The notes under the pieces were generated by a model that did not search any database, was not told the DNA's origin, and saw only the letters and a list, made by a program, of their open reading frames with translations. A stretch of 64,000 nt of DNA from a virus: positions 97,149 through 161,148 of IMG/VR virus record IMGVR_UViG_3300030102_007788. One strand, written 5' to 3'. The position numbers and the translations under genes are program-made. Positions 21,650 through 59,867 of this stretch are shown piece after piece. Numbering within the stretch: the stretch's first letter is position 1; each line of letters begins with the position of its first letter.

Positions 21650-21658
21650 ATATTACAA
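21650..21658 (-). promoter_or_regulatory. Late-type promoter box
   Basis: Minus strand TTGTAATAT, 6 nt before the ATG of gene 20963-21643; one base off the GTGTAATAT consensus. Confidence 0.4.
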
Positions 21659-21719
21659 CGGCCAAAATATTTTTTCTAAAATCTTTTGAATTCACAGCGG
21701 CCAAAGTTATAATACGTTT

Positions 21720-21989
21720 ATGTTGAAAGTATGTACAAAATGCAAAGAGGCTCTCCCTTTATCCGACTTTAGGAAGCAGAGTAGTACGAAGGATGGCTTG
21801 AAGTATTATTGTAAACAATGCGATAACGAACTCGCGAAAAGCTACTATAAAAAGAATAAAGAGAAGATTGTCAGTAAAGTTAAGGAATGGCAGGAAAAAA
21901 ATCCTGAAAAGGTTAAGGGATATAAAAAATCGTACTATGGCAAAAATAGAACTGTACAACCACCAACCATTTCCGAAGACAATACATAG
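21720..21989 (+). CDS. Zinc-knuckle protein, 89 aa
   Basis: MLKVCTKCKEALPLSDFRKQ with CKQCDNELAKSYYKKNKEK: a treble-clef-like N-terminal zinc knuckle of the kind found in front of phage HNH nucleases, here without a nuclease part. A TATAAT box ends about 6 nt upstream of the ATG. It may be a truncated homing endonuclease or a stand-alone DNA binder. Confidence 0.7.
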   Translation: MLKVCTKCKEALPLSDFRKQSSTKDGLKYYCKQCDNELAKSYYKKNKEKIVSKVKEWQEKNPEKVKGYKKSYYGKNRTVQPPTISEDNT

Positions 21990-22902
21990 GTGGGGTTGGA
22001 ACGGGGTTACCCGACTAATTGCCAAACATTTTCATGATCATAGCGCAGAGGTAATGCTTGACGCTATGATCGAGCATACTTTTCACGTAGGGAGAGGTAA
22101 AAAAATGGATTTTACTTGTTTTCCCCACATGAAGAAGAAATGGATTAATATGTTCCATAATCCTTGTACTTCGTTAGGGTCTACAGAAACAAGATGGGAG
22201 CAAAATATATTTTCTCTTTATGGCAACAAGCACTATAGAGCTTTTATGGAGAATTGTATTGGATTTATTACATTTAGCAAAAGCGCCGCTTTAAAAACTA
22301 GAAAATCTCTACATCATTTAGATATTAATTTACCAGTAGGTTTTGTCCATCACCCATCCGAAGAATCTAATATAAAATTCAATTTAGAACATTTTGAGCG
22401 CCAAGTAATTCATGTCGGCTGGTGGCTTAGGAATTTTGATTCATTTTTTAGGCTTAAGACTAAATATAAGAAAATTGTATTACAAGGCCCCGGAGAATAC
22501 GGAATGGATAGCTATTACAACAGTAAGGCTAAATTAAAAACACGACACGAGCAGAATTGCACGCATTTAACCAACGGTTATCTTTCTAACGAGCAATACG
22601 ATGAAATTATGTCAAAGTCAGTTGTCTTTTTGGATTTGTATGACTCTATTGCAAATAACGCTATCCTTGAATGTATATCTCGCCAAACACCCATCTTAGT
22701 TAACCCTCTAGACTCAGTTGTCGAGTACCTAGGCAAAGATTACCCGTTTTATTACTACTCGCTAGATGAAGCGGCGGAAAAGTTAGAGGATGATGATTTA
22801 CTACAAGAAACCTCTGAATATTTACAAAGCCGCCAAAGCTTGGTAGCTAAAGACAAGTTTGTGAAAGATTTAGACCATGTCTTGGAAACATTTTTAAAAT
22901 AA
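21937..22902 (+). CDS. Glycosyltransferase-like protein (GT-B), 321 aa
   Basis: The start at 21937 (MAKIELYNHQPFPKTIHRWG) overlaps the zinc-knuckle gene by 53 bases; an earlier in-frame ATG at 21868 would give an unnatural basic extension. The C-terminal half has the GT-B pattern: VIHVGWWLRNF, then NEQYDEIMSKSVVFLDLYDS and NNAILECISRQTPILVNPLD, where the conserved Glu-containing segment usually contacts the sugar nucleotide. Donor and acceptor are unknown; modification of virion protein or host surface is possible. Confidence 0.7.
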   Translation: MAKIELYNHQPFPKTIHRWGWNGVTRLIAKHFHDHSAEVMLDAMIEHTFHVGRGKKMDFTCFPHMKKKWINMFHNPCTSLGSTETRWEQNIFSLYGNKHYRAFMENCIGFITFSKSAALKTRKSLHHLDINLPVGFVHHPSEESNIKFNLEHFERQVIHVGWWLRNFDSFFRLKTKYKKIVLQGPGEYGMDSYYNSKAKLKTRHEQNCTHLTNGYLSNEQYDEIMSKSVVFLDLYDSIANNAILECISRQTPILVNPLDSVVEYLGKDYPFYYYSLDEAAEKLEDDDLLQETSEYLQSRQSLVAKDKFVKDLDHVLETFLK

Positions 22903-22935
22903 GATTTTAAAAAAAATGGATTTTATGTTTTTTCT

Positions 22936-22944
22936 GTGTAATAT
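22936..22944 (+). promoter_or_regulatory. Late-type promoter box
   Basis: GTGTAATAT, 8 nt before the ATG at 22953; no -35 hexamer. Confidence 0.55.
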
Positions 22945-22952
22945 CATTTAAC

Positions 22953-23381
22953 ATGGGACTTAATTTAAATTATACCAAGGAAGACGGTCAACAGGCTTTT
23001 TACTGGAAGGTTAGCCGAGTTGAGAATTGGTTCCAAGGCACTACTGGTCCGGATTACGGCTCCAATATCAACACCTTGGGATTCACGAATGAAACCTATC
23101 GAAACCAAGGAGCTCCCTCTGTAGCTGATAATATGTTCAACTGCCCATACTCTGGCGCAGTAGATTATTACGATTACGCAGACCTTACAGGAGTTTCTGG
23201 TGAGGTAACTGGAACTAAACGTTTAGGTCCGCCTCTCCCCTCTGATTGGGATTGGGCAGAAAATGGAGTATCCGGTTGGATGCAGCGGAGTGACGATATC
23301 AGGAGCGGAGCGTATGTTTGGTTAAAGAACTGCGTACCTTTCTTCTCAGGAGCAACAGACGCATTAACAGAAGGAGAATAA
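22953..23381 (+). CDS. Putative structural protein, 142 aa (paralogue A)
   Basis: The protein is rich in Gly, Trp and Tyr and shares the segment DLTGVSGEVTGTKRLGP and the following LPSDW and VSGWM with the next gene, so the two arose by tandem duplication. The DNA of the shared segment differs at many synonymous sites, so the duplication is old and the protein constrained. Likely a minor virion or secreted protein; no known family recognised. Confidence 0.75.
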   Translation: MGLNLNYTKEDGQQAFYWKVSRVENWFQGTTGPDYGSNINTLGFTNETYRNQGAPSVADNMFNCPYSGAVDYYDYADLTGVSGEVTGTKRLGPPLPSDWDWAENGVSGWMQRSDDIRSGAYVWLKNCVPFFSGATDALTEGE

Positions 23382-23385
23382 TACA

Positions 23386-23820
23386 ATGGGACTTTATAAA
23401 TCAATTACAACAGACGCTGGCTCAACACTTAATTACTGGGATTTCGGTATCGTTGAGGTTAATACTGCTGCATCAAAAAAAGAAGATCAAAACGCCGTTG
23501 TTAACATTTGGGGTTATCATGACGTAGATTATTATAACGCTGGCAAGCCACCTATCGAAAGATGGAACCAATATACTTGTAATATGGTTAGTGGCACCGA
23601 TCATTATTCTTACATGGATTTGACGGGTGTTAGCGGTGAAGTAACAGGTACAAAAAGACTTGGACCTGCTCTTCCATCTGACTGGAGCTGGACAGCTAAT
23701 AGTGTTTCTGGTTGGATGGCTAATAGCTCCGATATTCGTAACGGAGCTCAAGCATGGGCTCTTAACTGTGTTCCTGCTTTTTCAGGAGCTGTTGTGACCG
23801 GTCAGGTATATCCAGATTAA
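23386..23820 (+). CDS. Putative structural protein, 144 aa (paralogue B)
   Basis: Paralogue of 22953-23381 (shared core at the same relative place, similar length and end NCVPxFSGA). It follows by 4 bases. Function unknown. Confidence 0.75.
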   Translation: MGLYKSITTDAGSTLNYWDFGIVEVNTAASKKEDQNAVVNIWGYHDVDYYNAGKPPIERWNQYTCNMVSGTDHYSYMDLTGVSGEVTGTKRLGPALPSDWSWTANSVSGWMANSSDIRNGAQAWALNCVPAFSGAVVTGQVYPD

Positions 23821-23844
23821 TTCCCAAAAGAAAGTATATAAATT

Positions 23845-24114: not shown

Positions 24115-24140
24115 TACGTTAATTAAATTAGTTCCTCAGT

Positions 24141-24172
24141 CGCAGCCCCCCAGCGGGGCTGCGATTTTTTTT
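24141..24172 (+). terminator. Rho-independent terminator
   Basis: CGCAGCCCC/GGGGCTGCG stem followed by A and eight T. Confidence 0.9.
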
Positions 24173-24208
24173 ACTCTTATCTTTTTAGAGATCGTCGTCA
24201 ATGAGGTA

Positions 24209-24589: not shown

Positions 24590-24653
24590 AATTTTCCTTT
24601 TCTTGAAGTGCCATCCTTCCCCTAATGGCTTTGTGGACTCCCCACCGGAAAAT

Positions 24654-24962
24654 TTATGGTTGATTGTACCTATTAGGCTTTTTATTCCAAAGCCTTTTAA
24701 TACTGGTGACTTCATAACCAGCATCTTTTATAATTTTTATAATTTTAGTATTCTTGATCCAATATACTCTCCCTGAATCACTTTCGGCCAAATCAATTAA
24801 AGCTACCTGTTTTTTTGTATCAAATTTTATATTTAATACATTAATCTCTTTTTTGAAACCGCGTTTAATCCCTATACCACACGAAGAACAAACTAACCCA
24901 TTGATCTTTATCTCCAAGTCAGGTTGGAAGGATAAAGCGGCAACTAGCATCAAAGAAGTCAT
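24654..24962 (-). CDS. Heavy-metal-associated (HMA) domain protein, 102 aa
   Basis: Residues about 16-95 match the HMA fold of copper chaperones and MerP: EIKINGLVCSSCGIGIKRGF with the CxxC pair at Cys25/Cys28, KKQVALIDL strand and IIKDAGYEV helix-strand. The N-terminus (MTSLMLVAALSFQPD) looks like a short signal, so a periplasmic location is possible. It probably binds a soft metal such as copper, zinc or mercury. It sits in an operon behind a membrane coiled-coil protein, with a 4-base overlap. Confidence 0.7.
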   Translation of the reverse strand: MTSLMLVAALSFQPDLEIKINGLVCSSCGIGIKRGFKKEINVLNIKFDTKKQVALIDLAESDSGRVYWIKNTKIIKIIKDAGYEVTSIKRLWNKKPNRYNQP

Positions 24963-25240
24963 TGATTTTTCTGATGTTTAGCTAACTCAATTTCTATTTC
25001 CCTCAGCCTATTATTCAAACTATTTATAGCTGCGGTATTATTTGAAGTGTCTTTTTGTAGAATAGTGATTTCAGTTATCTTTTTGTCCATTTGAATTAAA
25101 TGGTCCTCCAATTTCTCAAACTCCACTTTACTAGGAAATAAAGTTTGAAGATATGCCAATATCCCAATCCCTATAATAGGAGCAAACTTAAGGAACCCAT
25201 CTAAATCCGTAAAAGATATTTTTTTATTTTCACTTGGCAT
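24959..25240 (-). CDS. Membrane coiled-coil protein, 93 aa
   Basis: The ATG at 25240 (MPSENKKISFTDLDG) lies 8 nt behind a GTGTAATAT box; an in-frame TTG at 25246 is less likely. One transmembrane helix (FAPIIGIGILAYLQTLF) is followed by a long coiled coil (EFEKLEDHLIQMDKKITEIT). The layout resembles phage holin- or spanin-associated proteins but is not diagnostic. Confidence 0.65.
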   Translation of the reverse strand: MPSENKKISFTDLDGFLKFAPIIGIGILAYLQTLFPSKVEFEKLEDHLIQMDKKITEITILQKDTSNNTAAINSLNNRLREIEIELAKHQKNQ

Positions 25241-25248
25241 TTCCAATA

Positions 25249-25257
25249 ATATTACAC
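25249..25257 (-). promoter_or_regulatory. Late-type promoter box
   Basis: Minus strand GTGTAATAT, 8 nt before the ATG of 24959-25240. Confidence 0.55.
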
Positions 25258-25291
25258 AGAAATTTATATTTTTCTAAATGTAATACATAAT

Positions 25292-26017
25292 ATGGCACAA
25301 TTAAATGCAAATACCCCCTACATACAATGTTTCATTCGTAACCGGTATATACTGGGTCCAGAAGATAACGGATTGACCGAAGGTTATATATTCGGTGTAA
25401 AATCTATGATAAATCGTCCCATGCACTTTCATTTTCAATCGTGCTTCGGGGCGATTTTTTGGCAGATGCCAATTTCGGCGTTTTGTCATAAAGAGGACTA
25501 TGAAGTATTATCTGAGGAAGAAGAAAAACGACTATCCTTATTGCAAACATGGGATTGTCAGGATAATGATATCGCAGTTACTACATTCGGCTTTTTGCAA
25601 AACCGCAGAGTTGACGTATTTTGCCGGGACCAAGTATGGCGTTCTGGTAAGTATGTTTTTACTATTGACGACTACGAGGGAGACCTTAACGAGCTCAATA
25701 TTGGATACGCTAACGATCAAGATTCAAAATGTTACCACTTTTTGGAATTGGATGATGGGAACTATGCCATACCCCCTAATAATCTTTTACGCTGGCATAA
25801 TCCTGATTTTATTGTACCGTATCCTAAGGATAAACCCCCTAAAATAAAAATATTCAATAACCCTCTCAGCTCTGAAGATATAGACAGATCCTATGGAAAT
25901 AGCCCTTACTACTTCTATAATCATTACCCGGAAGAGGAAAAAAAAGAAATAGAACCTACCCCGTTAAGATCAAAATCTGCTTATAGAGAAGATTTACCAG
26001 AATATCCCTCAGCTTAG
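25292..26017 (+). CDS. Hypothetical protein, 241 aa
   Basis: MAQLNANTPYIQCFIRNRYI; mixed alpha/beta, rich in aromatic and acidic residues, Pro-rich tail (EEEKKEIEPTPLRSKSAY). ATGTAATAC, close to the late box, ends 5 nt before the ATG. I do not recognise the family. Confidence 0.7.
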   Translation: MAQLNANTPYIQCFIRNRYILGPEDNGLTEGYIFGVKSMINRPMHFHFQSCFGAIFWQMPISAFCHKEDYEVLSEEEEKRLSLLQTWDCQDNDIAVTTFGFLQNRRVDVFCRDQVWRSGKYVFTIDDYEGDLNELNIGYANDQDSKCYHFLELDDGNYAIPPNNLLRWHNPDFIVPYPKDKPPKIKIFNNPLSSEDIDRSYGNSPYYFYNHYPEEEKKEIEPTPLRSKSAYREDLPEYPSA

Positions 26018-26039
26018 TATTTGTAGCATAGATGTTTCT

Positions 26040-26048
26040 GTGTAATAT
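26040..26048 (+). promoter_or_regulatory. Late-type promoter box of the cyclase operon
   Basis: GTGTAATAT, 5 nt before the ATG at 26054, implying a leaderless transcript. Confidence 0.55.
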
Positions 26049-26053
26049 TTTTT

Positions 26054-27646
26054 ATGGGGGAACTGCATACCATAGCAAGCAATGGTAATTTAAATGTTAT
26101 AAAAAAAGCGCTTTCGAAAAATAAAGACGCATTTCTTGTCGTAGATGAAGAGTTAGGATGGTCTCCTTTACATTACGCCGCTAGCAAAAGCAAAACTAAA
26201 ATTGTAGAAGCTATTTTAGAGGCTGGCGTTGACCCTAATATTCCAAGTGTTCCTCGCACTAAATATAAACAAAATGCTTGGAACTTAGCTATGGAGGAAG
26301 ACAAAGAGAATGTTGACCCAATCGTTTTCCCACTGGATGTTGCAGATGGCCCTTCTCGCACAACAGTATTCAAAACGATTTTAATGTACGGTGGAATTTT
26401 TTATGGAGATGAATTAACTCTTCATCAAGCTGTACAGTTAGACGATATGGAAGAAGTCGAGGGATTACTACAAGACGAAACTCTTAAAATTAATGCTAGA
26501 GATAATAGAGGATGGATGGCGATTCATTACGCTGTAGATCTTGCTAATATGGAAATGTTAAAAATATTAATTGCAAATAAAGCTGCTATAAACGGTTCCA
26601 CTTATGCAAAAGATGCTATAATTCATTTTAATCCTTGGGAAATTGCTAACATTAAAAATGATGAAGTAATGCTTAAATTTTTAGAATCTAAAGGCGCTAA
26701 ACGTCACCCGGGTATACTGCATGATCAAAGGGCAACGTTAAAAAATAAAACTAAATTATACGACAGGTCAAAATCTGACTTAACTATGTCAGCAGTTAGA
26801 GAAAAATTAAAAGAAAAAGAAGCCTCGTTTAAAAAAGTTCCTAAAGCTCCTGAAGGATTTTTGGGCAAGCTATTTGAAAATAAACACGATAAAGAAAAAA
26901 GATTAGCTTTAGAAGCCGCTGCCGAAAAAGAGCGGGAAAAAGAAGAAGAAGCCAAAAGAATAAAGCAACAAGAGCAAGAAGAAGAAAGAAGAAAACAGCA
27001 AGTTATAAAATGGTCTGGAGGCGTAGATCCTTTTAAATTAAAGGGTGAGTCATTAACTTATGACGAACAGTGTGAGGCTCATATTTATTTTATGGATATC
27101 GTAGGGTATTCGCAGAAAAGCACAAGTGAACAAAAACAAGTTTCAGATGAGTTGGTTTCAATTGTAAAAAGCACCGAGAGCTTTCAGAAGGCAGATAAAA
27201 AAGGTAAGTTAGTTATTCTGCCTACAGGTGACGGTATGGCTTTAGTTTTCTTCGATTCCGTTCATACAGCTTTTAAATGCGCTATAGATGTCGGCATCAG
27301 GACATTTAAGCATCCTCAAATAGGATTACGTCACGGTGTTTATACCGGACCCGTAGTTCCTGTTAAAGACATAAATGATAACCCTAACGTTTCTGGTACA
27401 GGTATAAATATGGCTCAACGCTGCATGGATGCTGGAGACAGTGATCATATCTTGATCTCAGATCATGTGTATCAATACGTTAGAGAATCTATACCTGCAT
27501 TAAAATTTGAAGATTGGGGACCTGTAGTCGTCAAACACGGAGCTACAGTACATATGTGGACAGCTTTTGGCGTTAATTGTGGGAGACAAGAATTTCCTCA
27601 TTGGAGAGGGATTAAGAGATTAGAGTATAAGGAAGATGAAGAATAA
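26054..27646 (+). CDS. Ankyrin-repeat class III nucleotidyl cyclase, 530 aa
   Basis: Residues about 1-215 contain ankyrin repeats (ELGWSPLHYAASKSKTKIVE; RGWMAIHYAVDLANMEMLKI). About 215-320 is a charged coiled coil. About 335-510 is a class III adenylyl/guanylyl cyclase domain: FMDIVGYS with metal-binding Asp348, LPTGDGMALVFF with second metal Asp393, GLRHGVYTGPVV, and SGTGINMAQRCMDA with the Asn452/Arg456 transition-state pair. The Lys expected just before the second Asp in typical adenylyl cyclases is not present (LPTGD), so the base used (A, G, C or U) cannot be told. The enzyme should make a 3',5'-cyclic nucleotide. It heads an operon with a ferredoxin. Confidence 0.9.
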   Translation: MGELHTIASNGNLNVIKKALSKNKDAFLVVDEELGWSPLHYAASKSKTKIVEAILEAGVDPNIPSVPRTKYKQNAWNLAMEEDKENVDPIVFPLDVADGPSRTTVFKTILMYGGIFYGDELTLHQAVQLDDMEEVEGLLQDETLKINARDNRGWMAIHYAVDLANMEMLKILIANKAAINGSTYAKDAIIHFNPWEIANIKNDEVMLKFLESKGAKRHPGILHDQRATLKNKTKLYDRSKSDLTMSAVREKLKEKEASFKKVPKAPEGFLGKLFENKHDKEKRLALEAAAEKEREKEEEAKRIKQQEQEEERRKQQVIKWSGGVDPFKLKGESLTYDEQCEAHIYFMDIVGYSQKSTSEQKQVSDELVSIVKSTESFQKADKKGKLVILPTGDGMALVFFDSVHTAFKCAIDVGIRTFKHPQIGLRHGVYTGPVVPVKDINDNPNVSGTGINMAQRCMDAGDSDHILISDHVYQYVRESIPALKFEDWGPVVVKHGATVHMWTAFGVNCGRQEFPHWRGIKRLEYKEDEE

Positions 27647-28386: not shown

Positions 28387-28727
28387 GATTTCCAGTATTT
28401 GTGAGGATAGTCTGGAGTGTTTTCTTTTATAACAGCCTGAACCCAGCTCACGTCTAAACCTTCGTGATACAAATTGTGGTTAGTAGTGTGCGTATTCGGG
28501 TGAGGTTCCCACCTTCTAGCTAAAGCATACAGTTGATTCTGTTCGTACTGACGAACTGCTGCCAATATGCAAAAGCACCTAAGTAAAGATTTTTTTGGAG
28601 GGGGATTTATACCTCTTTCTATTTTGCGCCACATTTGATAATCTACTTTAAGAAGTCTAGATAATTTTGTAATATTATCAAACTTCCTCATTCTTAATTC
28701 TTTGAGGTATGTGTGAAACTGGTTCAC
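28383..28727 (-). CDS. XRE-type helix-turn-helix regulator, 114 aa
   Basis: Residues about 18-50 (NITKLSRLLKVDYQMWRKIE RG) have the helix-turn-helix shape of Cro/C1-type regulators. The C-terminal part (about 60-114) is unrelated and Trp-rich. It lies at the convergent end of the cyclase operon and shares a promoter with the membrane peptide 28724-28936, so it may control nearby genes; this is inference. Confidence 0.65.
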   Translation of the reverse strand: MNQFHTYLKELRMRKFDNITKLSRLLKVDYQMWRKIERGINPPPKKSLLRCFCILAAVRQYEQNQLYALARRWEPHPNTHTTNHNLYHEGLDVSWVQAVIKENTPDYPHKYWKS

Positions 28728-28936
28728 GGAAGTAGCTTATCTAAAACTTCTTCTTTTAGCTTTTCTTTAGCTTTGTCAGCGGCTTTGTCTACTACTTTCT
28801 CTACAATAGCCTCTTTTGCCGCCTCCTTTGCGTTCTCAGCGACTTTTTCCTTAATTTCCTCTCCCTGTAGCATCCATATAACAAAAACCAACAGAGCGAC
28901 TCCTAGGGCGACTATTAGGATATCCTTTTTCTTCAT
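28724..28936 (-). CDS. Membrane-anchored amphipathic protein, 70 aa
   Basis: MKKKDILIVALGVALLVFVI is one N-terminal transmembrane helix; the rest is a single Lys/Glu/Ala amphipathic helix. Its stop overlaps the regulator's start (ATGA). A GTGTAATAT box lies 6 nt upstream. Confidence 0.7.
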   Translation of the reverse strand: MKKKDILIVALGVALLVFVIWMLQGEEIKEKVAENAKEAAKEAIVEKVVDKAADKAKEKLKEEVLDKLLP

Positions 28937-28942
28937 AAAAAA

Positions 28943-28951
28943 ATATTACAC
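28943..28951 (-). promoter_or_regulatory. Late-type promoter box
   Basis: Minus strand GTGTAATAT, 6 nt before the ATG of 28724-28936; divergent with the box at 28959. Confidence 0.55.
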
Positions 28952-28958
28952 GCAAAAA

Positions 28959-28967
28959 GTGTATAGT
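28959..28967 (+). promoter_or_regulatory. Late-type promoter box
   Basis: GTGTATAGT, 11 nt before the ATG at 28979. Confidence 0.45.
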
Positions 28968-28978
28968 AAATTAGTACC

Positions 28979-29365
28979 ATGTTGGTAAAAAATATTTTCA
29001 AGTATGGACTGATGGCAATTATTGCGTCAGTGTTAACAACCGCCGAAGCCAAACCTAGTAAAGGTAAGGGAAAACCTCGTCCAGAAAAGGTAGATAAAGA
29101 AAAACTTAAAGAAAGATTTAAGGCCGCGGCAGAAAAAAGAAAAAAGCATATCGAAAGTAAAAAACGCCGACATCATTGGAAGGGGAAGAAAATAGACAAT
29201 GAAGAGCTAAATGAGCTTCGGGAAAAAATGAAAGAGCTCCATAAAGAGATGCATGAGCTAAGAAAAAAGCATCGCGAGGAGATGAAGAAAAGAATGGAGC
29301 AGATAAAAAAAGAATTCGCTAATAAGCGCGATAAAGTTATCGACGAGAATAAACCGGGAGAATAA
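28979..29365 (+). CDS. Secreted charged coiled-coil protein, 128 aa
   Basis: An N-terminal signal (YGLMAIIASVLTTAEA) is followed by a very basic linker and a coiled coil made almost only of Lys, Glu, Met, Leu and His. It probably acts in the periplasm. A bidirectional terminator follows. Function unknown. Confidence 0.7.
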   Translation: MLVKNIFKYGLMAIIASVLTTAEAKPSKGKGKPRPEKVDKEKLKERFKAAAEKRKKHIESKKRRHHWKGKKIDNEELNELREKMKELHKEMHELRKKHREEMKKRMEQIKKEFANKRDKVIDENKPGE

Positions 29366-29431: not shown

Positions 29432-29995
29432 TTAGTATAGCTCTGAATAATCAAGCGATGCATCTGCTTCGCTTACCTTAACTCCGAATTTTTTAGCTGC
29501 GGCTTTAATTTTTTTCAAGGCCGATTTTTTAGCTTCCTCACTAATTTTTGTTTGGTTTAGTCTGGCCAATGCGTTGCGTACATGAGCCGCATCATTTATA
29601 GGAAGGTGTCTTAATGATCGAGGGACAGTCTTACCCTCGTCGTCTTTTTTTCCACCGGGTTCAATGTATGCAAATTCTGAATCAGGGAGATCGTTTTTGT
29701 TTTTAGTTGACAAAACTGCGCTCTCCATTTCTTTTAGATTTTTCTTATCGTATTTCTCGTCTTTTTTAATATCATGGATTTCGACACTCTTTTTTTCTGA
29801 GGGCTTGCCCTTTTTAAGCTTTTTGATTTTACTGTCATCATCTTTTAAGGCATCTTTTTCGTGCTCTTTTTTTTCTTTCTTATCGTCACGTTTAAGCTCT
29901 TTAGTATCGATTTTTTCGTACTGTTTCTTAGTCATGGCAGCTTCTTGTTCTTCGCGCCATTTAACAATCTGTTCTGAGAAATCAATTTCTTTCAT
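29432..29995 (-). CDS. Phage protein with DUF6582-like C-terminus, 187 aa
   Basis: The first 90 residues are a Lys/Asp/Glu-rich disordered segment. The C-terminal part LPDSEFAYIEPGGKKDDEGK, PRSLRHLPIND, HVRNALARLNQT and KKIKAAAKKFGVKV matches a small conserved domain often found attached to phage head or prohead-protease proteins. Exact role unknown; a head-assembly partner is likely. Confidence 0.7.
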   Translation of the reverse strand: MKEIDFSEQIVKWREEQEAAMTKKQYEKIDTKELKRDDKKEKKEHEKDALKDDDSKIKKLKKGKPSEKKSVEIHDIKKDEKYDKKNLKEMESAVLSTKNKNDLPDSEFAYIEPGGKKDDEGKTVPRSLRHLPINDAAHVRNALARLNQTKISEEAKKSALKKIKAAAKKFGVKVSEADASLDYSELY

Positions 29996-30005: not shown

Positions 30006-30305
30006 TTATTTTACACTTTTTTTAGGGGTCATTTCCATTAATTTTCCAGCTGGTTCCCATAAACTTACGGGAGCGTTAGTTCTGACAGATAAATTTTCAG
30101 GCTTTAACAACACTGCTCCCGGGGCATTAGTTTTAATTATTGGTTTACCCATATTTTCTTTATCTTTGTAATAATCCATTTCCACTTGAAAAAAGGCGGG
30201 GACAGAAAATCTAACTTTTTCCAACCTACCTTTTTTGTCAACTGACATGCAGCCTTTTGCGCCTAAGCTTATAAATATTATACATAAAAATAGTGTTTTT
30301 TTCAT
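30006..30305 (-). CDS. Lipoprotein, 99 aa
   Basis: MKKTLFLCIIFISLGAKGCM is a lipoprotein signal with lipobox GAKGC. The mature part is polar and basic. It overlaps the MscS-like gene by 4 bases (ATGA), so the two are probably made together in the envelope. Function unknown. Confidence 0.75.
   Translation of the reverse strand: MKKTLFLCIIFISLGAKGCMSVDKKGRLEKVRFSVPAFFQVEMDYYKDKENMGKPIIKTNAPGAVLLKPENLSVRTNAPVSLWEPAGKLMEMTPKKSVK
30008..30016 (-). promoter_or_regulatory. Late-type promoter box
   Basis: Minus strand GTGTAAAAT, 12 nt before the ATG of 29432-29995. Confidence 0.45.
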
Positions 30306-30814
30306 TTTTTACTTCTTGTTCTTCTGGTAGGTTTTTCTACCACTTCAACCTGCATAGGCGGAGGATTTACGGGAACTTCTTCCCAGCCAACAAAACTGGG
30401 ATCACTAGCTTTTGGTAAATAAGCATCTCCGCCATTTTTAGGTAAAGTCTTTTCAATAGTAAGCTGTTTTAACTGCTCATTTGGCACCAACATCTTAGTT
30501 TTGCGGTCTGTCATGTAGAAAACCGTATTACGAATTCCGACCCGAACTATACGGGCTTGACGACCAGAAATATAAATGATATCGTCATTGTTAAAATTAT
30601 TTCCCATAAATACAAGTATACCTTGAGCAAAATTCATTATCATGTCTTTTGCCATTATGGTTATAATAGCTATCATCAATAGCCATCCATATTCCCCAAT
30701 AAGGCTTTCCAAAAAGCCTTCCACATTTTCTTTATTCATCCCTCCGTCAGACAATTGATTCAAATTTGTGCCTAAGTTGACTAACTGCGGGATTGCGTTT
30801 GTAATCTCTTCCAT
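30302..30814 (-). CDS. Mini MscS-like membrane protein, 170 aa
   Basis: One transmembrane stretch (GWLLMIAIITIMAKDMIM) runs into NFAQGILVFMGNNFNNDDII, YISGRQARIVRVGIRNTVFY and KTKMLVPNEQL. This reproduces the pore helix (TM3) and the beta domain of the small mechanosensitive channel MscS, without TM1-TM2 and the C-terminal alpha/beta domain; a Pro-rich basic tail replaces it. E. coli MscS has about 286 residues. It may make a pore or a dominant partner of the host channel. Confidence 0.7.
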   Translation of the reverse strand: MEEITNAIPQLVNLGTNLNQLSDGGMNKENVEGFLESLIGEYGWLLMIAIITIMAKDMIMNFAQGILVFMGNNFNNDDIIYISGRQARIVRVGIRNTVFYMTDRKTKMLVPNEQLKQLTIEKTLPKNGGDAYLPKASDPSFVGWEEVPVNPPPMQVEVVEKPTRRTRSKK

Positions 30815-30827
30815 GACTTTTCCTTTA

Positions 30828-30836
30828 ACATTACAC
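30828..30836 (-). promoter_or_regulatory. Late-type promoter box
   Basis: Minus strand GTGTAATGT, 13 nt before ATG with AGGAAA between; divergent from the phoH box. Confidence 0.5.
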
Positions 30837-30843: not shown

Positions 30844-30852
30844 GTGTATTAT
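30844..30852 (+). promoter_or_regulatory. Late-type promoter box of phoH
   Basis: GTGTATTAT, 7 nt before the ATG at 30860. Confidence 0.5.
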
Positions 30853-30859: not shown

Positions 30860-31621
30860 ATGTCAAAAGTAAAACGTGCAGGAGACTTTGAGTCTCTTGA
30901 AGTTAGCGACGGGAGAGTCAAGATCCATCAGAGGGATCCAATTAAACCAAAAGACAATTTTTATATAGAAGAATTGCCTTGGACAGAAAAACAAAAACGA
31001 TTTATAGACTTATCTTTAGACAAAAATACTAGGTTGATATTATGTAAAGGTCCAGCGGGTAGCTCTAAAACACTTTCTGCTGTATATTCAGCACTGCACC
31101 TTTTGAACAACTCAAAAGTTTCTGATGTTATCTACATGCGCTCAGCGGTAGAAAGTTCCGACTCTCGATTAGGTTTCCTCCCCGGAGACGCAGATGAGAA
31201 ACTTCATTATTATAATTTACCTTTTATGGATAAATTAGACGAGCTCTTGAGTGAAGAGACTGTAAAAAAACTACAAAAAGAAAAAAGGGTTTCAATACAC
31301 CCTGTCAACTTTGCGAGAGGTATGAGCTGGAACGGAAAAGCTATTCTTTTAGATGAAGCTCAAAATAGTTCTTTTCGTGAAATTGTTACAGTTTTAACAA
31401 GAATAGGTAAGTATTCCAGATGCTTTATTATGGCTGACCCTATGCAAACAGACTTAAAAAATGGAAACAGAGGAGGCTTTGAAAAATTATTCGCGGCTTT
31501 TAATGATGACGAAAGTAAGAGTATGGGAATTCATACTTTTGAATTCAATGCTGATGATATTGTTAGATCAGAGCTAACTAAGTTTATTGTGGAAAAAGTG
31601 AATACTATTGAGACTCATTAA
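30860..31621 (+). CDS. phoH: PhoH-like ATPase
   Basis: The 253-residue protein has the PhoH P-loop domain: WTEKQKRFIDL near the N-terminus, Walker A GPAGSSKT (about 64-71), VIYMRSAVE, Walker B ILLDEAQN (about 162-169) and the sensor segment FIMADPMQTDL. PhoH is widespread in marine phages; its cellular task (RNA- or DNA-related ATPase) is unresolved. No pho box was identified upstream. The 3' end overlaps the convergent gene by 17 bases. Confidence 0.9.
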   Translation: MSKVKRAGDFESLEVSDGRVKIHQRDPIKPKDNFYIEELPWTEKQKRFIDLSLDKNTRLILCKGPAGSSKTLSAVYSALHLLNNSKVSDVIYMRSAVESSDSRLGFLPGDADEKLHYYNLPFMDKLDELLSEETVKKLQKEKRVSIHPVNFARGMSWNGKAILLDEAQNSSFREIVTVLTRIGKYSRCFIMADPMQTDLKNGNRGGFEKLFAAFNDDESKSMGIHTFEFNADDIVRSELTKFIVEKVNTIETH

Positions 31622-31939: not shown

Positions 31940-31948
31940 GTGTAATAT
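31940..31948 (+). promoter_or_regulatory. Late-type promoter box of the packaging operon
   Basis: GTGTAATAT, 6 nt before the ATG at 31955. Confidence 0.55.
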
Positions 31949-31954: not shown

Positions 31955-32356
31955 ATGAAAGCGTATTGTCCAGACTGTGGCTCAGCCACAGAGTACTCGT
32001 TACAGAAGCCTAAATTTTGTGCTTCTTGCGGTAGCTCTTTTTCTATTGCGTCTTCCGCGCCAAGTAAAAAGATTTTTAAAACTGCCGCTAAAGTTGTTAA
32101 ATCAAAACCTAAAGTGGAGTTTATGGAAGAGGAAGAGGAGTCTTTTAACATTCCTCAGATAGATAAGCTGGATGTAAGCTTTACATCGTCTTCATTTGCT
32201 AAATCAAATAAGCTGGGTGACATTGTAGGGTCTAACGTCGATGGTGATCGAGAAGAGTTTACTAGGGAAAAAGATACTTCTTATTCTCTGGAAAGCTTCG
32301 AGCAGGACTTCATGAGGGATGCAGGGAGTTCACGTAGACCGGATGCCGAAAGCTAA
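31955..32356 (+). CDS. Zinc-ribbon protein, 133 aa
   Basis: YCPDCGSATEYSL and KFCASCGSSFS form an N-terminal zinc ribbon (about residues 4-26); the rest is acidic and disordered. It overlaps the sigma-factor gene. First gene of the forward late operon; a regulatory partner of the sigma factor is possible. Confidence 0.75.
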   Translation: MKAYCPDCGSATEYSLQKPKFCASCGSSFSIASSAPSKKIFKTAAKVVKSKPKVEFMEEEEESFNIPQIDKLDVSFTSSSFAKSNKLGDIVGSNVDGDREEFTREKDTSYSLESFEQDFMRDAGSSRRPDAES

Positions 32357-33026
32357 AATAAAATTTGAAGATTATATTGAACAGATAGATGCAGAGATAA
32401 AAAAAAGAAGATCCAAGTGGAATTTGACAGCGCTTTCTTGGATGGACTTTGATGACGTATCTCAAATCCTGAGGATTCATATATTTAAAAAGTGGCATTT
32501 GTATGATACAAAAAAGCCCCTCAATCCTTGGATCAATAGGATTATATCTAATCAGATAAAAAATCTTATACGTAACAATTACGGTAACTATTGTCGACCT
32601 TGCTTAAAATGTGCGGCAGCAGAGGCGGGGGACTTATGTTACATATACGGTAAACAAAGTGAGGCGTGCCCTTTGTTTGCAAATTGGTCTAGAACTAAAA
32701 AACAAGCTTACAACGCTAAACTTCCTGTATCAATAAACGATCACACTTACGAAATAAATTCTACAGAGTATAGCGATATAGACATCTTAGGCGTTATGGA
32801 TAGAATTAGCGCCAAGATGAAAGAAGTTTTAAAACCCGCCGAATGGAAAATTTACCAAGCTCTCTACATAGAGCATATGTCAGAGGAAGACGCTGCTACC
32901 TTGATGGGGTACAAGACTAATGAGAAAAATAGAGTTCCCGGGTATAAGCAAATCAAGAACGTAAAAAAAGCTATAATTAAAAAAGTAAAACGGATGCTGG
33001 AAGATGGAGAGATAGAAATCTTATGA
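32343..33026 (+). CDS. Phage sigma factor-like protein, 227 aa
   Basis: The segment WMDFDDVSQILRIHIFKKWH, DTKKPLNPWINRIISNQIKN and LIRNNYGNYCRPC corresponds to sigma-70 region 2 as seen in T4 gp55-like late sigma factors; a Cys-rich insertion (CLKCAAAEAGDLCYIYGKQ) follows, then a helix-turn-helix region 4-like part (EWKIYQALYIEHMSEEDAAT). It should direct host RNA polymerase to phage late promoters. The start MPKAKIKFED at 32343 overlaps the previous gene by 14 bases; an in-frame ATG at 32319 is possible. Confidence 0.75.
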   Translation: MPKAKIKFEDYIEQIDAEIKKRRSKWNLTALSWMDFDDVSQILRIHIFKKWHLYDTKKPLNPWINRIISNQIKNLIRNNYGNYCRPCLKCAAAEAGDLCYIYGKQSEACPLFANWSRTKKQAYNAKLPVSINDHTYEINSTEYSDIDILGVMDRISAKMKEVLKPAEWKIYQALYIEHMSEEDAATLMGYKTNEKNRVPGYKQIKNVKKAIIKKVKRMLEDGEIEIL

Positions 33027-36895: not shown

Positions 36896-36904
36896 GTGTA
36901 AAAT
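36896..36904 (+). promoter_or_regulatory. Late-type promoter box
   Basis: GTGTAAAAT, 11 nt before the ATG of the portal gene. Confidence 0.45.
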
Positions 36905-36915: not shown

Positions 36916-38793
36916 ATGGCAGTAAGGAAGAAAACGGAACAAGGCGCGGAACCCTTGATGGCTATGCATCAATCTAAAGCTAGTCAGACAAGGACTCGTA
37001 GAAACGCGGCGGCTGATATTCCGCGTACTGACAGGTTCAGGAACATTGAGAATGGGATGATACCATTCAAGTATTCTCATGGTGTCAAAAATAACTCTAA
37101 TATTGACGTAAGGGATACAATTATCCTATGTCAGAAAGCTTACTACAATTTTTCTGTTTTTAGAAATACGATAGATCTAATGACGGAGTTCTCAATTAGT
37201 GACCTTTACTATACTGGAGGTAGTCGAAAGTCTCGAGAGTTCTTTGACACTCTGTTTAGAAAGATCAATATCGATGACTTGCAGAGCCGCTTCTTTAGGG
37301 AATACTACAGGTCGGGAAATGTTTTTATTCACAGGTTCAATGCAAAAATGGACCGTTCTGACGCTATCAAAATTAATCAAACTTTTGGATTGGCTGAAGC
37401 TTCAGAAGAATTGGAAATACCTTCTAAGTATATCATTTTAAATCCCTCAGACATACAACTTCAGGGAAGCATCACATTTAGTACTGGTATCTATTACAAG
37501 GTTGTGACTGATTACGAACTACAGAGACTTAGATACCCCCAAACAGAAGAGGACAAAGAAGTCTATGACAGTCTTCCTGAGGAGACTAAAAAACTTATTC
37601 AACAGTCTAAAAATGTAGGGGCAGCGGCAATTACAATTCCCTTAGATGTAGAGAAGCTGACAGCAATCTTTTACAAGAAGCAAGATTACGAACCGTTTGC
37701 AGTTCCTATGGGTTATCCAGTGTTGGAAGATATCAACTGGAAGCAGGAAATGAAGCAGATGGACATGGCTGTAGCTAGAACTACTAATCAAGCCATTCTC
37801 TTGATCACCATGGGCGCTAAACCCGCGGATGGTGGTGTCAACCAACAGAACTTGATGGCAATGCAGAAGTTATTTGAAAACGAATCTGTAGGCCGCGTTT
37901 TGATTTCGGATTATACAACTGATGCTAAGTTTATTATTCCAGACATAGGGAATATCCTAGACCCAAGAAAGTACGATGTCGTAAATCAAGACATTCAAAT
38001 GGGGCTAAATAACATTTTGCTTAGCGATGAAAAATTTGCAAATAGTAGCATAAAAGTTCAGGTCTTTATGGAAAGACTTAAACAGGGTAGGAGAGTTTTC
38101 CTTGAGAATTTCTTAATGCCTGAAATTCGCCGTATTTCAAAAGAGATGGGTTTTAAGAACTATCCCAGAGCTCATTTTGAGGACGTAGACCTAAGAGACA
38201 CTTCAGTTTACTCTAGAATTTATAGCCGGTTAATTGAGCTTGGAGTTCTTACTCCAGAGGAAGGTATTCAGGCTATTGAGTCTGGCCGCTTCCCGACGGA
38301 AGAAGAGTCCTTGGAGTCTCAGTATAAGTTTAAGGAGTTGAGGAATGAAGGTTTATACGAACCGATTATTGGCGGCGCTAAGGGTGCTCAAATGAACGGT
38401 AGGCCTGCGGCCAGTAACAAACCCAAGGAAACGGATACTAAAACTCCAATCGGAACTAAAGCCGCGAAGACTCATTTTAGTTTATCTAGAATTCAAGAGA
38501 ACTTAAGTCTATCTGATAAGCTCAACCTAGAGGTCGAATCGTCATTGAGGCAATTACATAATCGGAAAAGGTTAAGTAAACAGCAAAAGGAAATTGCAAA
38601 AGAGATTACTAACATTGTGATCGCTAACGAAGATCCTGAAAACTGGTTAGCAAAAGCTGGCAGGTATGCCGCTGAACCCACCGACAGAAACCATGAAAGG
38701 GTTAATAAAGTTCAAGGTGTTGCTCTAGAGCATCAAGTTGATGACTTTTTAGCCGGAATACTGTATGCAAGCGTTTATGAAGGAGATAAGTAA
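36916..38793 (+). CDS. Portal protein, 625 aa
   Basis: Length, position after the large terminase and features such as YYNFSVFRNTIDLMTEFSIS, REYYRSGNVFIHRF and the SNIxVQVFMERLKQGR segment near the long C-terminal helices support a portal. Portals form the dodecameric DNA gate at one capsid vertex. A disordered basic N-terminus precedes the core, and a C-terminal extension (from about residue 500) is rich in Lys and Leu. Confidence 0.75.
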   Translation: MAVRKKTEQGAEPLMAMHQSKASQTRTRRNAAADIPRTDRFRNIENGMIPFKYSHGVKNNSNIDVRDTIILCQKAYYNFSVFRNTIDLMTEFSISDLYYTGGSRKSREFFDTLFRKINIDDLQSRFFREYYRSGNVFIHRFNAKMDRSDAIKINQTFGLAEASEELEIPSKYIILNPSDIQLQGSITFSTGIYYKVVTDYELQRLRYPQTEEDKEVYDSLPEETKKLIQQSKNVGAAAITIPLDVEKLTAIFYKKQDYEPFAVPMGYPVLEDINWKQEMKQMDMAVARTTNQAILLITMGAKPADGGVNQQNLMAMQKLFENESVGRVLISDYTTDAKFIIPDIGNILDPRKYDVVNQDIQMGLNNILLSDEKFANSSIKVQVFMERLKQGRRVFLENFLMPEIRRISKEMGFKNYPRAHFEDVDLRDTSVYSRIYSRLIELGVLTPEEGIQAIESGRFPTEEESLESQYKFKELRNEGLYEPIIGGAKGAQMNGRPAASNKPKETDTKTPIGTKAAKTHFSLSRIQENLSLSDKLNLEVESSLRQLHNRKRLSKQQKEIAKEITNIVIANEDPENWLAKAGRYAAEPTDRNHERVNKVQGVALEHQVDDFLAGILYASVYEGDK

Positions 38794-40232: not shown

Positions 40233-40241
40233 GTGTATAAT
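40233..40241 (+). promoter_or_regulatory. Late-type promoter box
   Basis: GTGTATAAT, 19 nt before the ATG at 40261, with AAAAGGA as ribosome-binding site between. Confidence 0.45.
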
Positions 40242-40260: not shown

Positions 40261-41220
40261 ATGGCAAATAAAAAAATATCTCAGTTAGTAGGAATAGGAA
40301 CGAGTTCAACAGTTAGTGGCACGTTCCTTTTACCTGTTGGGGCAGGCTCCTCTTCAGGGCCGTACACAACCAACAAAATAACGACTTCAGAATTAGCTTC
40401 TTATATATTTACAGGAGACAGCGGTGGGGGAGGTTTTCCCGCAACAGCTTTATCCGGACAGAAGGATGTATATTTCAATAACCCAAACTATCAAAATACT
40501 ACCGCTGCCGCTGACGGGGTAGATTATGCATACTTAATGTTGAAAACTTCTAATGGGCTACTTACCACAGGAAGTGGTATAGCCCGCCCAGTGGGAGGTG
40601 ACAATCTAGGAAATCATACTGCAACCACAACGTTAAACATGCAGGATAATATAATTAATAACGTTGGGCAGTCAATTAATTTTCAAGACGGCGGAAATGT
40701 AGGGAGTACTGCATCTGAAATTTCTATAGCACATGGGACAAAGATAAGATTGGATGCTCCAACCGTACAGTTAGGAGACGCAGATAACGTAACGGTTAAT
40801 GGGTCGTTTAGCGCAAGGTCTGCTGATTTTGCTGGCGCAATTACAGGAGATTCCCTAGAGGTTCAAGGGGCTTCTTATCATAACGTAACTGCTCTAAGCA
40901 GTAACACTATAGATTGGAGAGATGGAAATATACAGCATAGAACTATTAATCAAAATACTTCAATGACTTTTCAGGCGAATACTCTCAAAGAGGGCCAAAC
41001 GCTTACTCTATATGTAGAAAATAGTGACACGGACCCTCACACAATTTATTTTAGATCCGGAGCAAATACTGGGAACGTTTTGTTTCCACCCATGCCCGAA
41101 AGTGTCAAACATGTAGTAAATTCTACGCCGGGTATTTCCGGAAGAAAAACTAACGTTTATACTTTTGTTAATATTCATACAGGCATATTTGCTTCATCGG
41201 TAACAGGATACGTATACTAA
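40261..41220 (+). CDS. Tail fibre-like structural protein, 319 aa
   Basis: The N-terminus MANKKISQLVGIGT is typical of phage tail fibre attachment ends. The central part is Ser/Thr/Gly-rich with repeated short strands, and the C-terminal part (TLTLYVENSDTDPHTIYFRS) a compact beta domain. It starts the fibre gene block and is coupled to the next gene (TAATG). Confidence 0.65.
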   Translation: MANKKISQLVGIGTSSTVSGTFLLPVGAGSSSGPYTTNKITTSELASYIFTGDSGGGGFPATALSGQKDVYFNNPNYQNTTAAADGVDYAYLMLKTSNGLLTTGSGIARPVGGDNLGNHTATTTLNMQDNIINNVGQSINFQDGGNVGSTASEISIAHGTKIRLDAPTVQLGDADNVTVNGSFSARSADFAGAITGDSLEVQGASYHNVTALSSNTIDWRDGNIQHRTINQNTSMTFQANTLKEGQTLTLYVENSDTDPHTIYFRSGANTGNVLFPPMPESVKHVVNSTPGISGRKTNVYTFVNIHTGIFASSVTGYVY

Positions 41221-57570: not shown

Positions 57571-58204
57571 AGATTTTAAATCCTGCTTTTTTTGCAAGGT
57601 GGCAGAATGCAACATCTTCAGAACAGTAATCTTCTAAATCGCCGATTTGTTTTTTAAGCTGACAGAACCAAGGGTATTCAACTTTTTCAAATACTCCCTT
57701 TTTAATTAACATGAAACCCATGCCGTTGTAATCAACTTCCATCAAACCTTTATGGTTAGCAACGTCTTGTTGTTGCAAGAAATAAAATGAGCCGTTCTTT
57801 TTATAATACTTTTGATCCCAGTCCTTAACGCAGGCGAAGTTCTGCCCGTTCTCAGTTTTATAAATTCCAGAAACAATATCTTGATCGTAAGACATTAGCT
57901 TTTGTATTTGTTCAAAGCCAAAAACAATATCTGAATCGATCCACATTATATATTCGTAATCGATTTTACCATCAAAGGGGGCTTGGTGGATGCCTCGTCG
58001 TACATCGGCGCCAAGGCACAGGCATCTTGCGTAACTTACCATCGAAGAATACTTGTTGGAAAGCAATGGGTTGATTCCATTCTTGATACACTTAAGTAAA
58101 GTGTCTGTCCAACAATTTAAAAAGTTTCCTGAGAACTCCCTACCGGGAATTGCAAAAATGATATTCTTCATATGCAGGAAATATTCTACCGATATTTTAG
58201 ACAT
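57518..58204 (-). CDS. GT-A type glycosyltransferase-like protein, 228 aa
   Basis: MKNIIFAIPGREFSGNFLNC starts the domain, then YEYIMWIDSDIVFGFEQI carries the DxD-type metal and sugar-nucleotide site, followed by GMGFMLIKKGVFEKV and CSEDVAFCHLAKKAGFKIFI, the usual second half of small GT-A enzymes. It converges with and overlaps the heptosyltransferase gene by 53 bases. An inner ATG at 58171 is a possible start. Acceptor unknown; possibly adds to the heptose on fibres or acts on the host surface. Confidence 0.75.
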   Translation of the reverse strand: MSKISVEYFLHMKNIIFAIPGREFSGNFLNCWTDTLLKCIKNGINPLLSNKYSSMVSYARCLCLGADVRRGIHQAPFDGKIDYEYIMWIDSDIVFGFEQIQKLMSYDQDIVSGIYKTENGQNFACVKDWDQKYYKKNGSFYFLQQQDVANHKGLMEVDYNGMGFMLIKKGVFEKVEYPWFCQLKKQIGDLEDYCSEDVAFCHLAKKAGFKIFIDPQVVVGHEKMRILT

Positions 58205-58263
58205 AAGTCAAACAATAGTGTATTTTATATTAGTAGCTGCAGCTTGAGTTGTTTTAATACAAA

Positions 58264-58359
58264 GTCGGCGCTACCATATAAATACTTGGCTCATTGCGAG
58301 AAAGTATCTTCTCACCCAGCCGACGGCGGTAAACAACAAAAAAAACGCTAGGGTGAGAT
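58264..58359 (+). other. Possible pseudoknot upstream of gene 58373
   Basis: GTCGGC (58264-58269) pairs with GCCGAC (58319-58324); TCTCACCC (58310-58317) pairs with GGGTGAGA (58352-58359). The second stem starts inside the loop of the first and closes outside it, an H-type pseudoknot layout. An inner ATACTT/AAGTAT stem also exists. It ends at the AT-rich box before the ATG. Confidence 0.4.
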
Positions 58360-58372
58360 ATATACTAATGAC

Positions 58373-58879
58373 ATGCTAACAAAAGAAGATATCAAGTTTC
58401 TCGCGAGGAAGACAAAGTTACCCGCCGAAAAAGCTCAATCTTTATTTGAAGAAAAAACCGACTCTGACTTGGTCCTTGAGCAGATCAGCAATAAAAGACT
58501 TACAAAAAAAGAGCTGCTAGAATTATCCTTCCCAATTTTCATCAAAATACTTATCAACAGAGAGATGAAAGACATAGATCAAAAATATAAAAATTATGTT
58601 TCTGATTTTGTGGGTGTTTTTTATCCTCAGATAATGCTAGCTAATAGAATCAAAACTAAGGTTCCAAGAAAGCCTTCTGAAGAAAATGCTCAATACTTTT
58701 TTACTTTAGCTAGTTTTTTTGAAGAGGACATGGTGGCTCAAATGAATGTCCAGCAGGTTCATAAAATTTTAAAATACACAATGGATACATTTGCAGAAAA
58801 GAAGGGAAAAGACTATGTGGAGGCTATGTCTGTAGGTTATGAGTATTTTGGTAAGATAAGAAAAAAGTGGATGTCATAG
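58373..58879 (+). CDS. Hypothetical protein, 168 aa
   Basis: MLTKEDIKFLARKTKLPAEK; helical and basic, with QYFFTLASFFEEDMVAQMNV in the second half. A GATATATAC box precedes the start. Upstream of holin in the lysis region. Function unknown. Confidence 0.65.
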   Translation: MLTKEDIKFLARKTKLPAEKAQSLFEEKTDSDLVLEQISNKRLTKKELLELSFPIFIKILINREMKDIDQKYKNYVSDFVGVFYPQIMLANRIKTKVPRKPSEENAQYFFTLASFFEEDMVAQMNVQQVHKILKYTMDTFAEKKGKDYVEAMSVGYEYFGKIRKKWMS

Positions 58880-58887
58880 ACTATATT

Positions 58888-58896
58888 GTGTAATAT
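58888..58896 (+). promoter_or_regulatory. Late-type promoter box of the lysis genes
   Basis: GTGTAATAT, 9 nt before the ATG of the holin gene. Confidence 0.55.
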
Positions 58897-58905
58897 TAAT
58901 TTGAT

Positions 58906-59100
58906 ATGAAAGCACTTTCAGGTAAAAAAACCTACTTCACCGCTGGTGCAGCGGTACTGACGGCTCTCGGCGCTTATTTCGCTGGAGAGGTAGATCTCAC
59001 GGTAACTATTCAAAGCTGTTTTGCAGCTCTTATGGTAGTTTTTCTCAGAAAAGGAGTTACTTCCGAAGCTGCGAAAACTACTGAAAAGCCTAGCGAGTGA
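58906..59100 (+). CDS. Putative holin, 64 aa
   Basis: Two hydrophobic helices (YFTAGAAVLTALGAYFAG and TIQSCFAALMVVFLRKG) with a short loop and a polar C-terminus, typical of small class II phage holins. It overlaps the i-spanin gene (ATGA). It would set the timing of lysis by permeabilising the inner membrane. The endolysin partner here may be the SleB enzyme at 16.7 kb. Confidence 0.75.
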   Translation: MKALSGKKTYFTAGAAVLTALGAYFAGEVDLTVTIQSCFAALMVVFLRKGVTSEAAKTTEKPSE

Positions 59101-59309
59101 TGAGTTGGATCTCTTCTATCCTTGAAATTCTAAAGTCTTTGTTTGGATATTTAAATAAAAAAACATTGACAGAAGAGGAAAAAATTGCAAGAATAAAAAG
59201 AGAAGAGAAACAGCAAGTAAAGAATGACTGGAAAAGTACTCAGGATGAAATTGATCGTGCTTTTAAGTTTGCTAAGTCTCGCCAACGGGTGCAGGACGAC
59301 AAAAACTGA
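59097..59309 (+). CDS. Putative inner-membrane spanin (Rz-like), 70 aa
   Basis: A hydrophobic amphipathic N-terminus (WISSILEILKSLFGYL) and a charged coiled-coil rest (LTEEEKIARIKREEKQQVKN). The next gene, a lipoprotein, starts inside it in another frame, as in the Rz/Rz1 pair. Short for an i-spanin; identification rests on arrangement. Confidence 0.6.
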   Translation: MMSWISSILEILKSLFGYLNKKTLTEEEKIARIKREEKQQVKNDWKSTQDEIDRAFKFAKSRQRVQDDKN

Positions 59310-59475
59310 AGCTATATCAATCCCTGAAGTTCCCCAAAACATTGTTCAGAGAATGATGACCCATCCTCAAATTGACCAAGCTTGGGAACATGCTCCAGAA
59401 TTCACGCGAGATGTTTTAAAAACAATTTCAGATCAAGCTGCGCAGCTTGAGTTGAAAAACATAAATAACAACTAA
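59245..59475 (+). CDS. Putative outer-membrane spanin lipoprotein (Rz1-like), 76 aa
   Basis: From ATG 59245: MKLIVLLSLLSLANGCRTTK, a lipoprotein signal with lipobox ANGC. The gene begins 64 bases inside the preceding spanin gene. O-spanins are outer-membrane lipoproteins that reach the inner-membrane partner and fuse the membranes at lysis. Confidence 0.65.
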   Translation: MKLIVLLSLLSLANGCRTTKTEAISIPEVPQNIVQRMMTHPQIDQAWEHAPEFTRDVLKTISDQAAQLELKNINNN

Positions 59476-59477
59476 TT

Positions 59478-59780
59478 ATGAAGAATATTATTCTAATGAT
59501 TGTACTGCTTGGGCTGACTACCAGCGTCAACGCAGGAGAGAAGAAGGAAAAGTGGTTTGGTGTTGGTGTTAAGCCTGACCCAAACATCACTGTTCCATTC
59601 CTTGGAGTCAAAGCTCCACTGCCCACTGTTTGTGCTGGTAAAGATGTTTCGGCATCTTTTGACCTCAAATGCAACAAGCAAGGCGTAACCTTTAAACTAC
59701 CTTATTTTAAGTTTGATTGGGAATTTCCCGGTGTCTCTGTAGGTAGGGGGGAGAAGAAGGTTACTATCGGTAAGAAGTAA
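59478..59780 (+). CDS. Secreted small protein, 100 aa
   Basis: A clean signal peptide (MKNIILMIVLLGLTTSVNA) precedes a beta-like, Gly- and Lys-rich protein with a Cys pair (TVCAGKDV; DLKCNKQG) that could form a disulfide in the periplasm. Last gene of the lysis group, ended by a terminator. Function unknown. Confidence 0.75.
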   Translation: MKNIILMIVLLGLTTSVNAGEKKEKWFGVGVKPDPNITVPFLGVKAPLPTVCAGKDVSASFDLKCNKQGVTFKLPYFKFDWEFPGVSVGRGEKKVTIGKK

Positions 59781-59803
59781 TCTTATATAAATTACTTATG
59801 AGG

Positions 59804-59840
59804 AAGCTCTGGGCCTTACGGGTCTAGAGCTTTCTTTTTT
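59804..59840 (+). terminator. Rho-independent terminator
   Basis: AAGCTCT pairs with AGAGCTT around a 15-nt loop, followed by CTTTTTT. Confidence 0.75.
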
Positions 59841-59858
59841 CCATTTTTGGAAAAAATC

Positions 59859-59867
59859 GTGTAGAAT
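59859..59867 (+). promoter_or_regulatory. Late-type promoter box of the head genes
   Basis: GTGTAGAATATATAG, 11 nt before the ATG at 59879. Confidence 0.45.

Follow-up and report, generated by a model that had tools for sequence, protein, structure and literature searches.

Late genes of phage T4 are transcribed from a promoter, TATAAATA, that is read by gp55 and consists of a single −10-type element with no −35 (PMC2988020). The middle/late promoters mapped for gp36 of phage phiEco32 likewise consist of a single element, tAATGTAtA, and have no −35; transcription starts 6–8 bp downstream of the element (PMC8948821). Phage 7-11 encodes a sigma factor with region 4 (SaPh711_gp47) that drives late genes via the host polymerase from bipartite promoters, GTAAtg-(16)-aCTA, and the authors of that study attributed the missing −35 of phiEco32 to the lack of region 4 in gp36 (PMC8948821). 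Bacterial genomes avoid sigma70 −10 motifs, their coding DNA being under selection to stay free of accidental promoter words (PMC1939733).

The GTGTA promoter and the sigma factor described here are a strongly marked, new form of this known type of phage sigma factor with a single-element promoter. Like the T4 late promoter, the GTGTA promoter has one −10-type element and no −35, but it differs in sequence from TATAAATA and the sigma factor is of another family. It resembles the phiEco32 system in having a sigma factor in phrog_1740, one −10-type element without a −35 and a TGTA core with an A/T tail, whereas the core here is GTGTAAWWW and not tAATGTAtA. No relevant account of a phage GTGTAA promoter emerged from a literature search. 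The reading that we favour, with a probability of about three in four, is that GTGTAAWWW is a phage-specific promoter core which is read by a phage sigma factor with the host polymerase, gives near-leaderless mRNAs and has had its stray copies purged from coding DNA.

The window analysed is a stretch of 64,000 nucleotides (positions 97149–161148) of a 170,406-base virus record. The genome carries genes for terminase, portal, tape measure, minor tail, DNA polymerase, helicase, primase and rIIA, which identify it as that of a large tailed phage; its terminase shares just ~25% identity with those of phages that infect Bacillus, Clostridioides and other hosts, and the matches include ten Synechococcus phages. 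Relatives of the window sigma factor were found in 416 viral contigs, and a search for cultured carriers did not find it in any cultured phage. The phages with the GTGTA element are a large, uncultured, marine group, and the analysis provides a promoter map, made from sequence only, for a large phage lineage for which no cultured relative was found. Only two contigs from bacterial genomes (L180 and L181) carry the sigma factor, and both are binned in Flavobacteriales MAGs; this binning may hint at the phage host, and misbinning is possible. Against a flavobacterial host, the GTTGAC/TATAAT-type promoters of the phage are not flavobacterial in appearance. These promoters form a first class, in which GTTGAC and a TATAAT-like box lie ~40 nt before the ATG and the leaders are also very short; examples are found at 8533, 14557–15585 (−) and 17504–17770 (−) in the window and at 92725 and 55504 in the genome.

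A sequence-only reading of the window had placed a second promoter element at 13 start codons, and all 13 sites are present at those places and on those strands, 5–19 nt before the start codon. The form GTGTAATAT is found at 22936–22944 (+, 8 nt before the ATG at 22953), 25249–25257 (−, 8 nt before the minus-strand gene 24959–25240), 26040–26048 (+, 5 nt before the ATG at 26054), 28943–28951 (−, 6 nt before the minus-strand spanin-like gene 28724–28936), 31940–31948 (+, 6 nt before the zinc-ribbon gene of the sigma operon) and 58888–58896 (+, 9 nt before the ATG at 58906, located by sequence match). The form GTGTAAAAT precedes the minus-strand gene 29432–29995 by 12 nt (30008–30016, −) and the portal gene 36916–38793 by 11 nt (36896–36904, +). 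Back to back with the site at 28943 is GTGTATAGT (28959–28967, +), 11 nt before the ATG at 28979. The other forms are GTGTAATGT (30828–30836, −, 13 nt before the minus-strand gene 30302–30814), GTGTATTAT (30844–30852, +, 7 nt before the PhoH-like gene 30860–31621), GTGTATAAT (40233–40241, +, 19 nt before the ATG at 40261, with a Shine–Dalgarno-like spacer) and the variant GTGTAGAAT (59859–59867, +, 11 nt before the ATG at 59879), which is the weakest site owing to the G at position 6. The sites proposed earlier stand; 145 non-redundant sites give W4-N2-GTGTAAWWW as a better consensus, and the sites span the whole genome. Near the perfect element at 25249, on the opposite strand, ATGTAATAC (with A for G) occupies 25278–25291 directly before the start of a ferredoxin-like ORF at 25292 and is possibly a weakened site.

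Raw counts of the motif are by themselves weak (27 matches in the window with one mismatch allowed, against 18.6 expected); it is the position of the sites that is far from chance. Upstream of the 176 called genes GTGTAATA occurs eight times where 0.2 would be expected, and genome-wide 16 of the 25 GTGTAWWWT sites fall in the 0–25 nt ahead of called gene starts, where chance would give 0.3, with two of the 25 inside genes. All ten exact copies of GTGTAATAT in the 170-kb genome stand 2–11 nt before an ATG, a figure that counts start codons missed by the gene caller. In two groups of relatives GTGTA is enriched 25.9-fold (339 versus 13.1) and 20-fold (216 versus 10.8) in the 0–25 nt before starts, while the control words TGTGA, GTAGT and ATGTG range from 0.2- to 2.2-fold. 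The motif is therefore far from being equally frequent away from gene starts, both in this genome and in its relatives.

The upstream regions of orthologues in the relatives retain the GTGTA core while the flanks have diverged. Element and spacing are the same as at 22936 in 12 of 13 distinct orthologous regions; GTGTA precedes most orthologues of the gene served from 25249, down to ~58% protein identity; and GTGTAAT stands just before the start in all eight distinct relatives for the site at 26040. For the sites at 30008 and 30828, GTGTA is present in 30/30 orthologue upstream regions listed and in 33/33 distinct orthologous regions, respectively; GTGTAA is kept before the portal gene in 25/25 distinct regions (to 55% protein identity), and GTGTATA in 13/13 for the site at 40233. 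As an inner control, genes lying within these operons (35063, 38793 and 41220) lack GTGTA upstream. Even in contig L181, the sigma factor of which is 41% identical, GTGTA still precedes a portal-sized gene and others. The earlier proposal of a lineage-specific late promoter is borne out as far as a lineage-specific promoter is concerned, since enrichment, conservation, purge and geometry all point to one. The genes served include virion genes, as had been suggested: a tape measure assigned by sequence features, a portal assigned by its match to phage G gp14, and minor tail and virion proteins. Non-virion genes are served too, namely PhoH and ribonucleotide reductase (a weak site with a 14-nt spacer), so that the class may be middle as well as late; late timing is suggested by the type of gene downstream.

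The geometry of the sites was analysed over the same 145 non-redundant sites. No −35 signal or information was detected upstream of them, in keeping with the earlier description, and unlike in phage 7-11 an upstream element is undetectable. The spacer to the ATG is at least 5 nt at 139/145 sites (<5 nt at six, 5–9 nt at 88 and longer at 51), and the distribution drops abruptly below 5 nt; in phiEco32 the spacers are 10–65 nt. Among sites with spacers of at least 8 nt, a YR step is present at position 13/14 in 49 of 91 (0.54), compared with 0.08–0.31 at every other position tested. This peak makes the sixth base after the 9-mer the probable transcription start, a distance that agrees with that of phiEco32, and a 5-nt spacer would then put the A of the ATG at +1. 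The YR step and the spacer edge thus support the very short leaders that had been proposed, placing many predicted transcript starts at, or 0–4 nt before, the AUG. In the relatives, Shine–Dalgarno-like words are found in 1/88 spacers of 5–9 nt and in 8/19 spacers of at least 14 nt, partly because there is little room in the short ones. Within this genome the Shine–Dalgarno contrast between promoter-proximal genes (19%) and internal genes (30%) is weak and was not used as evidence.

The main enriched word upstream of the GTGTA sites is TTACAC, which is present at 37/145, often 6–8 nt away, and would suit an inverted-repeat operator, GTGTA…TACAC, bound by a repressor or activator in place of a −10 element. 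TACAC is nevertheless concentrated where a divergent gene starts (36/41, against 17/96 elsewhere) and hence is usually the divergent neighbour's own promoter; the distance between GTGTA and TACAC ranges from 6 to 39 nt, and most sites have one half only, directed at the ATG. We regard the operator as largely refuted, with a small residual probability. On the favoured reading, GTGTAAWWW would be a −10-type core read by host RNA polymerase with the phage sigma factor, region 2 of which would bind the element while nothing specific is contacted at −35. The transcript would begin ~6 nt past the 9-mer, and because the element stands 5–9 nt before most ATGs, the mRNAs of virion and associated genes would begin at the AUG or 1–4 nt ahead of it and be translated as leaderless or near-leaderless messages. 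Both the RNA 5′ ends and leaderless translation are predictions made from the DNA. A minority of genes, including that at 40261, have longer spacers, often with a Shine–Dalgarno-like run.

The element has also left a mark on coding DNA. When synonymous codons were shuffled within each gene, 178 copies of GTGTA/TACAC were expected and 41 were found. The deficit affects both the sense (17 versus 67 expected) and antisense (24 versus 106 expected) strands and extends to each of the genome's four parts. The pair ranks second in depletion among 512 five-mer pairs, behind CCAGG/CCTGG alone, and GTGTA is again the second most depleted word in both groups of relatives (262 versus 524 and 275 versus 534). 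All 15 one-base neighbours of GTGTA are at 0.84–1.15 of expectation, so none is purged; ATGTA, for example, is barely depleted (0.86). The depletion tracks the promoter consensus at the following position, being strongest before A (0.14) and T (0.18) and weaker before C (0.25) and G (0.43). No depletion of TATAAT or TTGACA was found in coding DNA of the same genome, and GTGTA is not purged in either T4 (48 versus 56 expected) or phiEco32 (58 versus 59 expected). Unlike GTGTA here, AATGTA is not purged in phiEco32 (20 versus 22 expected), nor is TATAAATA from T4 coding DNA (5 versus 4.5 expected in the 45 kb tested, a comparison of low power because TATAAATA is rare). In contrast to the −10 avoidance of bacteria, the word avoided here belongs to the phage's own promoter, and the purge is exact to the base and about fourfold. 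It is most simply read as the mark of a short DNA signal that works in both orientations; copies would be removed from both coding strands because so short an element suffices to fire. Purge and enrichment together offer a reusable route to unknown promoters.

A role of the element in translation, as a ribosome or leader signal, would account for its constant proximity to start codons; a signal in RNA, however, would not require a purge of both coding strands, and the spacer ranges from 5 to 21 nt, which makes this less probable still than an operator. Least probable of all is that GTGTA is rare in coding DNA as a restriction or modification target, its place at gene starts being secondary. 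The only more depleted word, CCWGG, does resemble restriction avoidance, but CCWGG is near-absent while GTGTA persists at gene starts and is conserved there across dozens of relatives. CCWGG itself occurs once in the coding DNA of the phage against 123 expected, is similarly scarce in the relatives (0 versus 407 and 22 versus 369; loci L022–L181) and in phiEco32 (2 versus 54.5), and is likely avoided as a restriction site.

The candidate reader of the element is a sigma factor of 227 residues (32343–33026, +), characterized by Pfam (Sigma70_r2), PHROG assignment, an AlphaFold2 model with structural alignment, and a family alignment. It had been called gp55-like, a label that has to be withdrawn: the one PHROG family that it matches is phrog_1740, to which phiEco32 gp36 belongs, while T4 gp55 falls in phrog_234. 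Profile comparison with gp55 revealed no similarity, and a region-4-like domain is modelled in the window sigma factor; T4 gp55 has no region 4. Full activity of T4 late promoters further depends on gp33 and the clamp; no match to the sliding clamp family PF00712 was found in the phage genome, which may carry a divergent clamp. The match to phrog_1740 is made by 33 of 35 members of the window sigma factor's own family but is weak (1e-5 to 5e-4) and confined to region 2, whereas gp36 matches at 1.9e-45, and the window sigma factor has no alignable similarity to gp36 itself.

The protein consists of region 2, a Cys-rich insert and a region-4-like domain at residues 150–221, with five cysteines invariant between the two domains (C84, C87, C90, C99 and C109). 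Confidence in the AlphaFold2 model is moderate (pLDDT 71.7, pTM 0.41), but residues 150–221 align to region 4 of SigD with a Z-score of 8.6 and an r.m.s.d. of 1.8 over 62 residues; whole-chain fits to sigma factors (r.m.s.d. near 15 Å) were not relied on, and the single-domain match alone is informative. Pfam PF08281 did not match and a sequence search of solved structures returned nothing meaningful, so region 4 is assigned from the predicted fold. Sigma factors of the ECF type have region 2 and region 4 without region 3; in the window sigma factor Sigma70_r2 comes from Pfam, region 4 comes from the predicted fold only and a Cys-rich insert separates the two, so that the layout may or may not be of this type. 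The ECF-type trait of a promoter with a specific −35 was not found for the GTGTA element. A region-4-like domain normally predicts a −35; here such a domain is predicted, yet the presumed promoters have none. This differs from gp36, which is said to lack region 4 (PMC8948821), and the Cys-rich insert is a further difference from gp36. How a region-4 sigma factor works without a −35 is now directly testable, as are leaderless late mRNAs in this lineage.

Residues 62–94, around the −10-reading helix, are nearly invariant across the family, which fits an unchanged motif and falls short of proof that the window sigma factor reads it. A second phage sigma factor, or an alternative sigma factor of the host, might instead read the promoter and leave the window sigma factor with another role. 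A second Sigma70_r2 protein does exist (genome 54857–55456, L011:15257–15856; 199 aa) and also weakly matches phrog_1740, and the pairing of motif and window sigma factor is one that we infer from sequence. The second gene is, however, matched in one other viral contig in a single-sequence scan, while the window sigma factor and the motif are family-wide and the former is nearly invariant where it would read DNA. We therefore consider a different reader unlikely. The favoured reading, with the window sigma factor as the reader, can be put in a more detailed form that we hold tentatively, at somewhat below even odds: the phages use their own sigma factor, GTGTA with its A/T tail fires alone, virion mRNAs are leaderless, the purge is base-exact, region 4 no longer reads a −35 and the Cys-rich insert may read part of the element.

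The sigma operon has its own element at 31940, which would create a positive feedback loop. Because the operon begins with the element, the initial supply of sigma factor would have to come from elsewhere, perhaps by read-through or from an overlapping promoter of the sigma70 type. The first gene of the operon (31955–32356, +) encodes a zinc-ribbon protein of 133 residues, recognized by sub-threshold Pfam zinc-ribbon matches, and orthologues are present in 121 of 128 loci; the protein is a possible co-factor of the sigma factor. Its C-terminal motif (EDF-RDAGSSR-like) is kept in relatives.
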